From Pedobacter alluvionis (GTDB lineage: Bacteria; Bacteroidota; Bacteroidia; Sphingobacteriales; Sphingobacteriaceae): a stretch of 64,000 nt of DNA. Below the pieces are notes generated by a model, which did no database searches, was not told where the DNA came from, and was given only the letters and a program-made list of their open reading frames with translations. The DNA lies in contig NZ_RCCK01000010.1 in NCBI RefSeq assembly GCF_003664035.1, forward strand, positions 682,001 to 746,000. Direction: 5' to 3'. Each line of letters begins with the position of its first letter. The first letter of the stretch is position 1. Positions 827 to 57,330 of this stretch are shown here, in pieces. A program made the translations under genes and the position numbers.

Positions 827-1737
827 TTTCTACCTATTTTGTTTTCAACAAAGTTGATAACTTCCGAGCTTTGATGAGGTTCAAACCAGTTGATTTCTTC
901 ATCTCTTCTAAACCAGGTGAGCTGGCGTTTGGCAAAGCGGCGGGTATTTTGTTTAATTGCCGAAACAGCGTCTTCAAGAGATAACTTTCCGTCCAGGTAA
1001 TCGAAAATTTCACTATAACCTACCGTGTTTAAAGCATTGTATTTTTTAAATGGTATTAGCAATTTTACTTCATCTACTAAACCATCAGCAATCATTTGAT
1101 CAACTCTTCTATTAATTCTGTCATAAAGTACAGCCCGATCGGTATTTAACCCAATTTTGATTATTTTAAACGGTCTTTCCTTTTTTGTAGCTGAAAGCAT
1201 TGAGGAAAGTTTTTGACCTGTCGATAAATATACTTCCAGTCCCCTGATCATTCTTTGTGGATTTTGCTGATCTACTTTTGCGAAATATTCGGGATCTAAC
1301 TCGGCCAGTTGGTTTTGTATAACTGTTAAACCTTCTTCTTCAAACTGTTTGTTTAATTTTTCCCTGATCGATAAATCGATCTCGGGCATTTCATCTAAAC
1401 CATTTATTAAAGCGTTTACATATAATCCGGAGCCCCCGACCATAATGGCGAGATCATGCTTTTTGAAAATTTCTTCAAGTGTTTTTAAGCCTTCTACCTC
1501 AAAATCGCCGGTACTAAACAGTTGCGTTACGGAATGTGAGTCTATAAAATGATGTTTTGCTGCAACCAATTCCGCAGCATTGGGCTTTGCTGTACCAATG
1601 GCCATTTCCTTAAAAAATTGTCGTGAATCTGCAGAAATAATTTCTGTACCAAAATGTAGTGCCAGGTGAATAGCCAAAGCTGTTTTGCCAATTGCAGTAG
1701 GACCAACAATGGATATTAAGATTTTTGGTTGAGGCAT
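823..1737 (-). CDS. miaA: tRNA dimethylallyltransferase MiaA
   Basis: MiaA transfers a dimethylallyl group from DMAPP to N6 of A37 in tRNAs reading UNN codons. The 304-residue product has the usual length. The P-loop GPTAIGKT lies at residues 12-19 and the DSRQ motif with the catalytic Asp at about residue 37; the mid-region VGGSGLYVNALINGL and the late RRFAKRQLTWFR segment are also family hallmarks. The ATG start places the P-loop where expected. The gene reads toward the SGNH hydrolase gene, and a separate terminator lies just upstream of its start, so it is probably transcribed alone. Confidence 0.96.
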   Translation of the reverse strand: MPQPKILISIVGPTAIGKTALAIHLALHFGTEIISADSRQFFKEMAIGTAKPNAAELVAAKHHFIDSHSVTQLFSTGDFEVEGLKTLEEIFKKHDLAIMVGGSGLYVNALINGLDEMPEIDLSIREKLNKQFEEEGLTVIQNQLAELDPEYFAKVDQQNPQRMIRGLEVYLSTGQKLSSMLSATKKERPFKIIKIGLNTDRAVLYDRINRRVDQMIADGLVDEVKLLIPFKKYNALNTVGYSEIFDYLDGKLSLEDAVSAIKQNTRRFAKRQLTWFRRDEEINWFEPHQSSEVINFVENKIGRK

Positions 1738-1753
1738 GGGGTTTGTATAAAAT

Positions 1754-1790
1754 AAAGGCTGCCAAATTTAAATATTTGGCAGCCTTTTGT
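1754..1790 (-). terminator. Intrinsic terminator downstream of the pRiA4b ORF-3-like gene
   Basis: The inverted repeat AAGGCTGCCAAAT / ATTTGGCAGCCTT has only a few loop bases and is flanked by T/A runs. On the minus strand it follows the pRiA4b-like gene and precedes miaA; it could work on either strand. Confidence 0.7.
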
Positions 1791-1809
1791 AATATTATTT
1801 TGTTGCTAA

Positions 1810-2460
1810 TTAATAGTCGTCTTTATGGCTATCATCTTCGAAGTTATCACTGTCAGAAAATTCATCTCCAAATTCGTCTTCTTCATTTTCTTCATCTTCA
1901 TCCCGCTCTTCTTCGTTAATACCCATTTCGCCCATGGCTTCTAATTCATCGGTGTCTTCAGGTACAAAGTTCATTTCATTTAAGAAATCAAATTCACCTG
2001 CAACTGCACCAACAGCTGCGCCAGGATCGGCAATGGGTGCATTGTTGCTTTCGAAAATTTTTGGTGCTTCGCCAGTGCTTTTAGCTAAAAATGGATATTC
2101 GATATTAGGGTCGGCGTCAAGAATAATTTTTACCAGTTCTACATGGAAATCGTAAGGGCGATCGAAATTATAGATATAGTAAAATTTTTGATGTGGATCT
2201 TCAATAAAACCGCTCAGTTTAGAATTCTCCATTAAAACTACACGGTCTTTTTTACGTTCGTTTGGTAAATAGGCAATTTCATCACCTTTTAACCAATTGT
2301 CAGTACTCACATAAAAAGAAGAAGGTTTCTCGGCATTATAACCTGTAGATCTGTGAATAGCCTTATGGAGGTCTTCAAATGTTTGGTTTGATTTAATGTC
2401 GATCTCTCTCACAACATCATCAAAATCTTCAAAAGTAATTCTAAATTTATAAATAGCCAT
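1810..2460 (-). CDS. Plasmid pRiA4b ORF-3-like family protein
   Basis: The first ~150 residues match the pRiA4b ORF-3-like family (PF07929-type) by pattern: an N-terminal YKFRITFEDFDDVVREIDI strand set, a LHKAIHRSTGY helix, and SSFYVSTDNWLKG. The C-terminal ~50 residues are a strongly acidic Asp/Glu tail, likely disordered. An ATG at 2523 would add 21 residues read from an AT-rich leader; I chose the ATG at 2460 because homology begins immediately there. The molecular function of the family is not established. It is followed by its own terminator. Confidence 0.8.
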   Translation of the reverse strand: MAIYKFRITFEDFDDVVREIDIKSNQTFEDLHKAIHRSTGYNAEKPSSFYVSTDNWLKGDEIAYLPNERKKDRVVLMENSKLSGFIEDPHQKFYYIYNFDRPYDFHVELVKIILDADPNIEYPFLAKSTGEAPKIFESNNAPIADPGAAVGAVAGEFDFLNEMNFVPEDTDELEAMGEMGINEEERDEDEENEEDEFGDEFSDSDNFEDDSHKDDY

Positions 2461-6179: not shown

Positions 6180-6236
6180 TTTTGTGGTTTTATAGCTTGT
6201 ATTTCTTAATTGTTACTACAGTCTGCTCAATCTAAA

Positions 6237-6345
6237 CCTGACATTCGCGGAAAGCCCGGAATCCGATCCTTCATCGGATGAGGACTTGCAGCATTGGCAG
6301 GACTAACGTTAACAGCAGCACTAACCTTGCTTTTCAAATATTAAA
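6237..6345. repeat. Dispersed intergenic repeat with CCTTC-apex hairpin
   Basis: Within this otherwise gene-free gap (6113-6424) lies AAAGCCCGGA, then a hairpin ATCCGAT-CCTTC-ATCGGAT (6261-6279), then GAGGACTTG, GGCAGGACTAAC and GCTTTTCAAA. The same block order occurs at 46 kb, and in part at 11.3, 12.3 and 23.5 kb. Confidence 0.65.
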
Positions 6346-11436: not shown

Positions 11437-12281
11437 CACCAAACGTTCCTACGGAACGAAAACGCTAATTAAACAATTAGCTACCGATGAACCGTCCCTA
11501 ACGGGACGGCAGGGAAGTATTAGTTTTAAAAAAAACACTGTGGCATTTCATTAAGTTAATTCATCTGCGCAGATAATATATTTAACCACAGATAAAAAGG
11601 ATGCACACAGCTATAAAATTGTATTTATCTGTTGTTGAAAACCGTTATCGTAATGACACTACGCAATGAAGCGGCGGGCAATTGTTTGTATTGTGAAAAA
11701 AAACGTCCCGTAGGGACGTATGCCCGGTAATTAGCTATCGATGAACCGTCCCTAACGGGACGGCAGGGGAGTATTAGTTTTAAAAAAACACTGTGGTATT
11801 TCATTAAGTTAATTCATTTGCGCAGATAATATATTTAACCACAGATAAAAAGGATGCACACAGCTATAAAATTGTATTTATCTGTTGTTGAAAACCGTTA
11901 TCATAATGACACTACGCAATGAAGCGGCGGGCAATTGTTTGTATTGTGAAAAAATACGTCCCGTAGGGACGTATGCCCGGTAATTAGCTACCGATGAACC
12001 GTCCCTAACGGGACGGCAGGGAAGTATTAGTTTTAAAAAAACACTGTGGCATTTCATTAAGTTAATTCATTTGCGCAGATAATATATTTTAACCACAGAT
12101 AAAAAGGATGCACACAGCTATAAAATTGTATTTATCTGTTGTTGAAAACCGTTATCATAATGACACTACGCAATGACGCGGCGGGCAATTGTTGGTATTG
12201 TGAAAAAAACGTCCCGTAGGGACGTATGCCCGGTAGAAAAAAAAATGTAATGTTTTTTTCGTTCCGTAGGAACGTTTGGTG
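11437..12281. mobile_element. 845-bp MITE-like element: three tandem ~254-bp units inside 26-bp perfect inverted repeats
   Basis: The ends 11437-11462 and 12256-12281 are exact reverse complements over 26 bp. Between them three near-identical units start at 11475, 11729 and 11982 (the last ends near 12236), so the period is 254 then 253 bp. Each unit holds a hairpin CCGTCCC-TAAC-GGGACGG and a second one ACGTCCC-GTA-GGGACGT, plus conserved AT-rich DNA with AACCACAGATAAAAAGG. There is no credible ORF and no evident target-site duplication. I infer a non-autonomous repeat element; the mobilising enzyme is not in the window. Confidence 0.7.
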
Positions 12282-12299
12282 GATAATCCGTTCATATTC

Positions 12300-12425
12300 A
12301 GTATTGTTTTGCCCACCTAAACCTGATTGAAATGAAAAGCTCACGCTTCTTCAGCGGGACTTGTAATGGAAAGCGGGAGGAGACATGGATTGGAATGCTG
12401 GTTTTGCTTTCCAAACCCCTTTTAA
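12300..12425. repeat. Dispersed repeat (GCCACCTAAACCCGA family), right flank of tandem block
   Basis: It contains GCCCACCTAAACCTGATTG, CAGCGGGACTTG and TTTTGCTTTCCAAA in the same order as the other copies. It is in opposite orientation to the left-flank copy, so the whole 11.3-12.4 kb block is roughly symmetrical. Confidence 0.55.
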
Positions 12426-14593: not shown

Positions 14594-14683
14594 TGGTGTA
14601 AGATGGTAACATCTTACACCATATTAAATTTTTCTAGCCTGGATGAACTATGTTGTCATAAGTCAGATGGAAGCAGCTGACTT
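14594..14683. repeat. REP-like hairpin doublet
   Basis: A perfect 12-bp stem (TGGTGTAAGATG / CATCTTACACCA, loop GTAA, 14594-14621) is followed by a second hairpin (AAGTCAG / CTGACTT, 14660-14683). Two close hairpins of this size resemble REP pairs; no RAYT transposase is in the window. The rest of the gap up to 14774 shows no other feature. Confidence 0.55.
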
Positions 14684-23424: not shown

Positions 23425-23605
23425 AAGTAGTTGCAGCAGCATTTAGTTTAATTCAGTCCCGCCCCCGCTTCTGCCGATTGAAAAAATCGGCATCCCGCTA
23501 CGGTCGGGTTTAGGTGGCGCTGACTGTGCTACTATCCGTAGTAAATAAACCCGATTGCAGTGAACATTCCGATCCTTCATCGGAATGTTCACTGCAATCG
23601 GGGCT
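23425..23605. repeat. Dispersed repeat with 24-bp perfect hairpin
   Basis: On the minus strand this is a GCCACCTAAACCCGA-family copy. It contains a perfect 24-bp stem (23550-23573 with 23579-23602) around the loop CCTTC. The surrounding gap 23321-23841 also holds a GTCATTCTGAGC repeat (23351) and otherwise no gene. The short open frames here are read out of the repeat. Confidence 0.75.
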
Positions 23606-23841
23606 GGAAACCGCCATGAAAAACCGAACCACTCATTTCCTAAAATAAAAGGATCAAAAAAGAAGAAACCGAATAATGAGTTAGGAATTAATGCTTTGAA
23701 AAGACCTCTCATATTTTTTAAGACCCGATGGGTTTGTCAACCGTATTTTGTTGATAAAATCCTGACAACTTCAACCCTCAAATTCCCTATTTTTGAAGAA
23801 CCGTTATTATTCTAGCAACGGTTAATTCTTTGCCGCACAAT

Positions 23842-30199: not shown

Positions 30200-30310
30200 A
30201 TCGGTAGGTTTTGCGTTAGGGATTGTAAGGGTTCCGTACCGATCCTTCATCGGTACGGGAGCGAAGCGCAGCCCTGCAAAGCCCGCCCCTTGGGTAACGC
30301 CCATATCAAT
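30200..30310. repeat. Dispersed repeat with CCTTC-apex hairpin
   Basis: A hairpin TCCGTACCGAT-CCTTC-ATCGGTACGGA (30233-30259) sits in a GC-richer block that also contains GCAAAGCCCGCCCC and GGGTAACGCCC. It fills most of the 325-bp gap 30096-30420; the rest is AT-rich leader of the DUF58 gene. Confidence 0.65.
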
Positions 30311-32439: not shown

Positions 32440-32830
32440 AATTTGTCACGTTGAGCCAGTCGAAACGCCTTATGAGACATCTCAAATAGGTCCTTCGAAT
32501 CTGCTACCATTGACGTTATTTTACAAATTATTATTAATCAGGATTTTAACTACTTTCGCATTTCCATCCAGCTAGGCCATAGTACGGTATCTCCGTTCTA
32601 CTTAAATCCGGCCTAATAAATTTTTCGGGCTGCACTGCTTAAGCCAGCCTACTAGCTTAGAAAGAAAAATTTTCAGCCGGTGTTTTTTGTTTCTTTTTGA
32701 CACCAAAAAGAAAGAGCCCTTCGGCGGCGGCAAGCCGAGGCAAGACAGCGCGTAGGATAAGAAAAGACAATTGTACGTCACTCATATTGATTTTAAACAA
32801 TTAACTAATCCTCAGGATGACAATTTTATA
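32440..32830. repeat. ~400-bp dispersed repeat, copy 1
   Basis: This block recurs at 56938-57330 with long identical stretches (for example GCATTTCCATCCA, TTTTTCGGGCTGCACTGC, AAAGAGCCCTTCGGCGGCGG, TGATTTTAAACAATTAA). A 9-bp arm AAATTTTTC near 32617 pairs with GAAAAATTT near 32666. GGCTG inside the loop can pair with CAGCC just after the second arm, a pseudoknot layout kept in both copies. There is no credible ORF. It is the left half of the 840-bp gap 32399-33238. Confidence 0.7.
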
Positions 32831-45841: not shown

Positions 45842-45974
45842 GGTTATTTATGAAATAAGTTGGTCGGCAGCTAAGTTAGGATGTTGTTTTTATCTTAACA
45901 AGAAAGCAGCCGCATAAATTAACAGGTTAACGTAATAAAGGATTCGGGTGGTTAAAATGATGGATTAATAATTT

Positions 45975-46626
45975 GGAAAGGTGCTGTAGCATTTTATCGG
46001 GAGGCTCCGGTCGGGCTGTTCGCTATATTCCCGATGAAGAATCGGGGGATAGCGCTTCCATCCCGTTTATTCACTAGGGCTCGTGCTGGTTAACTTAGTT
46101 TTTTTAACGCTAGCTATATAAAACGAAAATAGAAGTAATGCTGGCCACCTAAACCCGACTGGAACGTAAAGCCCGGAACGAGGTACGTGAGGACTTGAAT
46201 CGAAGGCGGGACTAAAGAAACCGAAAAGCTTGTGTCGCTGCTTTCCAAAAAGAAACAAGATTAATGATTAGGAAAGGTGCTGTAGTATTTCATCGGAAGG
46301 ATCCGGTCGGGCTGTTCGCTATATCCCCGATGAAGGATCGGGGGATGCCGCTTCCATCCCGTTTATTCACAGGGGCTCCGTGCTGATTAACTTAGTTTTT
46401 TTAACGCTAGCTATATAAAACGAAAATAGAAGCAATGCTGTGGCCACCTAAACCCGACTGGTGCGTAAAGCCCGGAACGAGGTACGAATGAGGACTTGAA
46501 GCGAAGGCGGGACTAAAGAAACCTAAATGCTTGTGTTACTGCTTTCCAAAAAAAATAAAATTAATGATTAGGAAAGGTGCTGAAGCATTTCATCGGAAGG
46601 CTCTGTCGGGCTGTTCGCTATGCCCG
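45975..46626. repeat. Tandem dispersed repeat, two full ~296-300-bp units plus a truncated third
   Basis: Units start at 45975, 46271 and 46571 with GGAAAGGTGCTG. Each full unit carries the TCCCGAT..ATCGGGGGAT hairpin, CGCTTCCATCCCGTTTATTC, TTTTAACGCTAGCTATATAA, then GCCACCTAAACCCGACTG and AAAGCCCGGAACGAGG. The third ends at CGCTATGCCCG. It fills most of the 798-bp gap 45842-46639. The last half matches the repeats at 6.2, 11.3, 12.3 and 23.5 kb. Confidence 0.8.
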
Positions 46627-56937: not shown

Positions 56938-57330
56938 TTTTGTCATGTTGAGCCTGTCGAAACACATAAAAGTTATTTAACTAAGTCCTTCGACAGGCTA
57001 CCATTGATGTTATTTTGCAAATATTTACTAATCAGTACTTTAAATTCTTTCGCATTTCCATCCAACTAGGCCAAAGTACTGTATCCCCGTTCTACTTAAA
57101 CCCGGCCTAACAAATTTTTCGGGCTGCACTGCCTAAGCCAACATACTAGCTTCAAAAGAAAAATTTTCAGCCGGCAGTTTTTGTTTCTTTTTGATGCCAA
57201 AAAGAAAGAGCCCTTCGGCGGCGGTGAGCCGAGGCAAGACTGCGCCGTAGGACAAGAGAAAACAATTGTACGTCATTCATATTGATTTTAAACAATTAAT
57301 TAACCCTCAGCATGACAATTCGAAATATAT
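56938..57330. repeat. ~400-bp dispersed repeat, copy 2
   Basis: This copy matches 32440-32830 along most of its length in the same orientation, including the paired arms AAATTTTTC and GAAAAATTT and the GGCTG / CAGCC pair. It begins with GTCATGTTGAGCCTGTCGAA. It lies between the porin gene and gldF; the rest of the gap 56885-57441 shows only AT-rich leader sequence. Confidence 0.75.

Follow-up and report, generated by a model that had tools for sequence, protein, structure and literature searches.

How can hairpins that share one tip have arms that differ from copy to copy and yet pair with themselves in every copy? The question is raised by five hairpins in the window, the whole 64,000-nucleotide stretch of Pedobacter alluvionis DNA analysed here, which an initial annotation grouped by their common apex. 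The perfect 24-bp stem around the loop CCTTC at 23550-23602 is present as that annotation described it, and the exact 13-nt apex, CGATCCTTCATCG, lies at 6264(+), 23570(+), 30240(+) and 46328(-). The remaining hairpin, in the array at 46 kb, does stand in reverse orientation, but its loop GAAGA is a one-base variant and it does not carry the exact apex. All pair with themselves as claimed, over corrected extents: the perfect stems are 7 bp long at 6.3 kb, 10 bp at 30.2 kb, and 6 and 7 bp in the two hairpins at 46 kb (Table 1).

Table 1. Repeat units and hairpins in the window. Bits are scores against the Flavo-1 covariance model.
Feature	Position	Strand	Remarks
Repeat unit with Flavo-1-type frame (CCTG...CAGG outer pairs)	6233..6304	+	by inspection; apical hairpin 6261-6279
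Flavo-1 unit without CGAT apex	12315..12384	+	43 bits
Head-to-head partner unit	23451..23515	-	Flavo-1-like, 26.4 bits, below gathering
Repeat unit TAAACCC...CGGGGCTGG bearing the 24-bp hairpin	23546..23609	+	orthologs Flavo-1-like
Perfect 24-bp hairpin, loop CCTTC	23550..23602	+	from sequence, orthologs and the sole difference cluster of its kind
Type A repeat (GCGTTAGGGATTGTAAGGG ... AGCCCTGCAAAGCCCG)	30213..30286	+	12 head copies in the genome; apical hairpin 30234-30258
Alternating Flavo-1 array	45947-46603	- and +	
Flavo-1 unit	46005..46072	-	41.4 bits (0.6 below gathering); apical hairpin 46030-46046, loop TCTTC (unit strand)
Alternating unit with different inner module (AAAGCCCGG...GGACTTG)	46150..46213	+	
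Flavo-1 unit	46301..46368	-	49.1 bits; apical hairpin 46325-46343, loop CCTTC (unit strand)
Alternating array unit	46446..46518	+	Flavo-1-like, 24.9 bits, below gathering

The apex and its stems

Across the 6.04-Mb genome to which the window belongs (G000), the 13-mer occurs 15 times, nine times on the plus and six times on the minus strand, against about 0.2 copies expected at random by our own calculation and none for the reversed control. The apex does not occur as often without complementary flanks as with them: all 15 copies pair beyond CGAT/ATCG, and counting by eye gives stems of at least 6 bp in 12 and at least 7 bp in 11, where each extra pair has a chance of 1/4. Among the copies read in relatives, five have a bare 4-bp CGAT/ATCG stem (L011, L012, L019, L024 and L029), two of them outside the genus, and in most cases a bare apex in relatives is probably due to chance. 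The exact 13-mer was found in 14 of the 41 genomes of the relatives search; 11, including G000, are of the same genus, and the three others have bare stems of 4 or 5 bp. A longer 21-mer has exact copies in nine stretches, all named Pedobacter.

The loop had been described as constant, which is not borne out; it is mostly YYTTC. The pattern CCGAT-N5-ATCGG occurs at 61 sites in this genome (two for the reversed control), and among the 50 of these listed, the loop ends in TTC on one strand in 37, including TTTTC in 15, CCTTC in 14, TCTTC in five, and CTTTC, ATTTC and CATTC in one each. The orthologous hairpin at 30.2 kb has the loop CCTTC in G000, CTTTC in G068 and TTTTC in G043. Loops of the GAAGA and GAAAA kind are reminiscent of the boxB loops of phage lambda. 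The statement that the stems share almost nothing beyond CGAT does not hold, in view of the near constancy of pairs 1-5 and the mostly preserved pairing at 6 and 7. In a sample of 25 GAT-YYTTC-ATC hairpins of G000, partly fetched because of their apex, C-G is the base pair at position 4 in 22 and at position 5 in 24. Positions 6 and 7 each show Watson-Crick pairing in 20 of the 25, where several types of pair are found. Watson-Crick pairing then falls to 11 at pair 8 and three at pair 9, and the outer arms are mostly unpaired. The 24-bp stem is the exception within the family and not the rule. As an observation, the hairpin family is thus partly confirmed.

Dispersed units related to Flavo-1

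The reading that we favour with good confidence is that each of the five hairpins forms the tip of a short repeat dispersed in Pedobacter, and that the tips owe their pattern to inheritance and module exchange, with rare copying of one arm from the other. In this reading each unit has an outer frame of covarying stems around a variable inner hairpin, commonly CCGAT-YYTTC-ATCGG. This architecture is that of Flavo-1 (RF01705; Weinberg et al. 2010, PMC2864571, of which a part was available to us), and the Rfam covariance model, with its gathering threshold of 42 bits, matches units at 46 and 12.3 kb and, more weakly, the partner unit at 23.5 kb and orthologs of the 23550 unit. The latter score 40.9 bits in L091 (G004) and 34.3 bits in L120 (G068), both below gathering. 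At an E value of 0.05, Rfam gave no match for the 6.3-kb unit or for the type A copy in the window, and one other type A locus (L004) was not detected as Flavo-1 either. By eye, the type A frame GGGATTG...AAAGCCCG resembles the frame GGGATGG...CAGCCCG at 46 kb, and judged from their frames the type A repeat and the 6.3-kb unit may be relatives of Flavo-1; one single family for all of these would go beyond what Rfam detects.

Flavo-1-type heads number 156 with up to two mismatches, compared with nine for the reversed pattern. In 53 units of G000 the outer stems covary: C6-G5 pairs in all 53 (shuffle mean 41.0) and T10-A1 in 50 (shuffle mean 30.1), with shuffle means that ignore relatedness. These units come from 91 heads, of which 36 lacked a tail within the limits and were left out, the 23546 and 6233 units among them; two of the remaining 55 were dropped, for an inner part that was too short and for a head start other than TAAAC or TAGAC. 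At the level of the genus, Flavo-1 is present in 19 of 31 genomes in up to at least 75 copies and absent among the scored candidates in 12, the copy numbers being lower bounds with 107 candidates scored per genome. As no gathering-level match was obtained in 16 further loci, several of them with such units, or in 140 kb beside the window, Rfam detects only part of the repeat family.

Fourteen of 18 candidate units lie outside ORFs of at least 150 aa, which cover 83% of the 264 kb considered; a few entries in the lists of candidates lie in genes and probably match by chance. The units are not generally paired head to head: by our criteria only two of 18 candidate units were paired in G000 and four of 22 in G068. 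We therefore claim such a pair for the 23.5-kb locus alone, and an alternating order for none but the array at 46 kb. Alignments of the window with three relatives, and of 264 kb with G068, yielded no clean empty site for a complete unit, so that any mobility of the units themselves is putative. Searches with 301 bp of the 46-kb array gave no match in plasmids, and those with the 226-bp element at 23.5 kb gave none in phages.

Since 2010 Flavo-1 has figured in lists as a probable small RNA; the literature found, as far as its accessible parts go, gives no function, and the name or the accession also appears in the parts seen of PMC9029176, PMC3765529 and PMC7682815. It could be a transcribed, structured small RNA, with selection at the RNA level maintaining the covarying stems. 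This is in line with its listing as an sRNA in Rfam, with the discovery table of PMC2864571, where it has a y under RNA and an n under cis-regulatory, and with the strong covariation of the outer stems. We nevertheless think this improbable for the units studied here, given that those of the 46-kb array alternate in strand and that many genomes carry dozens of copies when none was found among the scored candidates in 12 of the 31 of the genus; moreover, matches in F. psychrophilum seemed indistinctly sense or antisense, many outside transcribed regions, according to the portion of PMC9723704 available. Another RNA-level function, that of intrinsic terminators, would suit strong hairpins in intergenic DNA. 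It is made unlikely by the absence of a T run after the hairpins at 23602, 30258 and 6279, and the units occur between convergent and tandem neighbouring ORFs alike, so that we give it hardly any weight. The strand-alternating array, the patchy high copy number, the whole-tip differences and the repeat in the loop described below point to dispersed DNA, and the Pedobacter units, in distinction from Flavo-1 as published, read as a modular repeat that is dispersed through the genome, varies in its tips and has a second repeat in its loop.

Arm copying at 23550 and a proposed exchange of tips

The unit with the 24-bp stem lies between a lipocalin ORF upstream and a 1481-aa ORF downstream that encodes the DNA polymerase III alpha subunit. 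Orthologs of this locus, ahead of the polymerase gene, are present in G135 (L240), G068 (L120) and G004 (L091), and all three share the left arm of G000, with one base different in G068, and the 8-bp apical stem. Beyond the apical stem they read AAAACGAAAAG or AAAACGGAAAG followed by CGGG, where G000 reads GTTCACTGCAAT followed by CGGG. The right arm of G000 at 23587-23598 is derived and is an exact 12-nt reverse complement of the left arm at 23554-23565. The older arm type was present in all 26 other rows read, namely the three orthologs and 23 paralog rows, which were picked from 24 genomes with mirrored-arm matches plus two loci of G000. By our own calculation, 12 replaced bases would match the facing arm by chance with a probability of about 6e-8. 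An assembly artefact is unlikely, as the sequence is colinear on both sides.

At the level of aligned sequence, the comparison demonstrates both the change and its direction, with the right arm overwritten by a copy of the left. An exact mirrored arm, together with an ancestral arm read from orthologs, is by the same comparison the signature of a template switch in a quasipalindrome. For the underlying polymerase mechanism we infer that a polymerase held by the 8-bp apical stem would have jumped to the other arm of the hairpin as its template and rejoined the original one at the shared CGGG, in the manner of quasipalindrome correction. The event resembles those in studies of quasipalindrome template switching (Klaric et al. 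2020, PMC7202029; Monttinen and Loytynoja 2022, PMC8794818), in which, in the parts available, an imperfect inverted repeat is made perfect by copying an arm before return to the normal template; it differs in that it happened naturally in a dispersed repeat of a bacterium, where orthologs resolve it, and not in a reporter or in rRNA gene history. With three orthologs to give its polarity, the locus shows cleanly how one natural step makes a long perfect hairpin, and it opens a way to measure how often bacterial repeats undergo such steps.

Folded as single-stranded DNA, the 23550 hairpin reaches -30.7 kcal/mol, as opposed to -9.8 to -11.4 kcal/mol for the three orthologs. Because the arm was copied, the converted unit no longer has a Flavo-1 match on its own plus strand and scores 21.1 bits on the minus strand only. 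Rfam also returned animal microRNA matches over the hairpin; an identity as such was rejected, the matches being below gathering and of a kind expected for any perfect hairpin.

A gene-conversion-like copying of arms had been proposed for the whole family. While it is well supported at 23550, where the three orthologs keep the older right arm, it fails as the general cause. In the alignment of G000 with G068, which covers 127.7 kb in aligned blocks only, just one of 417 difference clusters is a reverse-complement copy of at least 12 nt, and it is the one at 23550. A search for the mirrored arm with up to one mismatch in 145 Pedobacter genomes listed 81 matches in 24 genomes (table sum); two of these are the arms of the 23550 hairpin, which form the only facing pair, and the other 79 listed all lack an adjacent mirrored partner. 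The interpretation first given to the hairpin family is in this sense partly supported.

The other stems differ because they belong to different tip lineages and because, within one frame, a tip varies as a whole. Other species have, at the orthologous polymerase locus, other inner hairpins in a similar frame, and the apical hairpin of the partner unit at 23.5 kb differs between species yet still pairs. In the 46-kb array, which has orthologs in sister species, both minus units of G000 carry a CCCCGAT or CCCGAT apex, and in a similar frame all six found in G068 and both in G043 have the tip CTTTTGCTG...CAGCAAAAG with a nested second palindrome. Units whose frames match could exchange whole tips by recombination or gene conversion, and a tip that moves as one piece would keep its arms complementary without compensating mutations. 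Such travel, itself inferred, would explain much of the pattern of different stems that each pair with themselves.

Two side observations concern these loci. With two minus units in the array of G000, six found in that of G068 and two in that of G043, the tip is fairly uniform within each array, which suggests concerted evolution. At the orthologous polymerase locus of G074 (L127), a single CCCGAT is, by inspection, all that is left of the unit, as though a deletion had joined two CCCGAT direct repeats.

A second repeat in the loop and candidate enzymes

A repeat of about 50 nt (the guest) was first seen inside the loop of a type A copy, L049. Its 3' part was matched 39 times in a search of four genomes. 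In a search of 60 Pedobacter genomes there were 140 exact matches, spread over 18 of them (table sum), and the reversed control gave 0 in each case. We read 49 distinct copies (5' TTAAGCAC ... GTGTGCTTGCTTGTTTCACAGG 3'; loci L049 and L260-L319, e.g. L266:1415-1560). Under boundary rules that allow one mismatch, the guest ends at the right loop boundary in all 49 and fits both boundaries in 46, the exceptions being in L263, L294 and L313. All guests have the same orientation, and their hosts are Flavo-1-type and type A frames. The guest, from TTAAGCAC to CACAGGT, measures 49-53 nt in 23 copies within Flavo-1-type frames, a range given without six type A guests clipped to 32 nt by the boundary rule, and by inspection it has a T-rich variable middle and self-complementary ends. 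The unit at C1:748713 in G000 has the loop CTTTTTC, and its ortholog in G068 holds a guest. No guest is present in the window, and the exact 24-mer of the guest end is absent from viral contigs. Similar guests in several kinds of frame would argue for some lateral movement.

The presence of a second small repeat in the loop makes a putative loop-recognising protein, which the initial annotation had offered as an explanation, less far-fetched than expected. The loop may, as a tentative reading, be a target for insertion or recombination, with a protein such as an HUH/Y1-type or other site-specific enzyme that recognises single-stranded CGATY^YTTCATCG hairpins. We are similarly hesitant about its extension, in which the ~50-nt repeat was inserted at the loop and recognition keeps the tip alike. 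Both would fit the placement of the guests at the loop boundaries, in one orientation and in two types of frame, and the pair of filled and guest-free orthologous units in G068 and G000. Loop-only copies would, however, also arise if the guest spread together with its units by conversion or duplication; five-nucleotide tips without a guest outnumber guests in G000 (61 sites versus 10); the one guest-filled unit folded as DNA did no better than its shuffles (z -0.71); and a search of 35 Y1_Tnp loci, with no guest near any of them, linked no enzyme to the loop. Insertion sequences are known to target REP sequences (Tobes and Pareja 2006, PMC1525189), and, as far as the accessible part of that paper goes, the likeness lies in another element sitting specifically within a palindromic repeat. 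The Pedobacter guest differs from those elements as a ~50-nt repeat that carries no gene and occupies the apical loop. In any case, the guest-bearing loop offers a concrete recognition site for an enzyme search.

One candidate enzyme is a Y1 transposase, and the units could be ordinary REP/REPIN repeats moved by a cognate RAYT. Like REP, BIME and REPIN sequences (Bertels and Rainey 2011, PMC3116915, in the part available), they are short, palindromic, extragenic, high-copy and inverted or alternating, and as high-copy, mostly extragenic palindromic repeats they agree with the REP/REPIN description. REPs are further defined by a tetranucleotide, GTAG or GTGG, that precedes the hairpin on its 5' side by 0-2 nt (PMC6006769, in the part seen) and which the inspected units do not have: their 5' foot is TAAAC or TAGAC, the head pattern by which they were found. 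A Y1_Tnp domain (PF01797) occurs in all 19 Flavo-1-positive genomes of the genus and in one of the 12 Flavo-1-negative ones, but the co-occurrence is phylogenetically clustered and may reflect one or two events. Identity in the polymerase region is at most 73% for the negatives and at least 75% for the positives, except for G015 (69%, two hits) and G022 (73%, one hit); G021 was not placed.

Around the genes themselves, 35 loci, out of 67 Y1_Tnp matches, were searched for units, type A heads, the apex and the guest. Within about 1.5 kb of the 35 genes there was no head-plus-tail unit where 6 to 8 were expected from the rough background density of two genomes; Flavo-1 matches numbered 0 in the 20 loci scored, and there was no guest near any of the 35. 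Two apex-like strings were met, one in L086 within ordinary-looking sequence and one in L223 in a genuine-looking unit, and two loci, L205 and L215, have weak type A heads (up to three mismatches). The L223 unit (AAAAGCCCGGATCCCGAT-TCTTC-ATCGGGAGAGGACTTG, reading TCCCGAT-TCTTC-ATCGGGA, in a GGG...CCC frame missed by the head-plus-tail pattern) speaks for a RAYT: it lies at about 1200-1300 on the plus strand, some 150 bp past the 3' end of an IS200-type Y1 transposase gene (1399-1857, minus strand), on one side only as seen. None of the Y1 genes searched has units on both sides, in contrast to the REP systems, and at least two of four own Y1 loci inspected (L085 and L086) are flanked on both sides by other palindromes. 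A cognate-RAYT origin was accordingly not supported, first with the seven Y1_Tnp genes of G000 and then with the 35 loci, where neither head-plus-tail unit nor guest was seen, and we regard it as an unlikely account of the units.

A palindrome of the latter kind is also found in the window, where 14594-14621 forms a perfect 12-bp hairpin with the centre GATGGTAACATC. Since a similar palindrome (GTCAGATGGTAACATCTGAC) stands on both sides of the Y1 gene in L086, the 14594-14621 hairpin may be a RAYT-cognate REP.

Beyond dispersed units with inherited and exchanged tips, a bolder view, rather doubtful in our opinion, is that the CGAT-YYTTC-ATCG tip is a recombination site at which a single-strand enzyme, encoded by the host or by an element, loads, swaps or removes loop modules, by which we mean the ~50-nt guest, nested hairpins and other tips. 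The Flavo-1 'RNAs' would then be docking hairpins of a two-layer miniature mobile DNA, and the 24-bp stem would be a by-product of a tip-primed template switch.

Flavo-1, REP-like dispersed repeats and template switching are already known. New are the unit-wise differences between tips, the one arm copy that orthologs resolve, and the guest repeat in the loop; the guest lies outside the original finding and is the most surprising point. No description of these Pedobacter repeats appears in the titles or abstracts of the literature searched.

Other repeats in the window were noted in passing. A 253-bp tandem repeat occupies 11475-12284 in three copies, and about 600 bp of that stretch are absent at the same place in G068. 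Two copies of about 300 bp, some 90% alike and bearing the hairpin TTTCTTTTTG...CAAAAAGAAA, lie at 57000-57305 and 32503-32825; G068 lacks the 57-kb copy at the corresponding position, so this copy may have been inserted recently.
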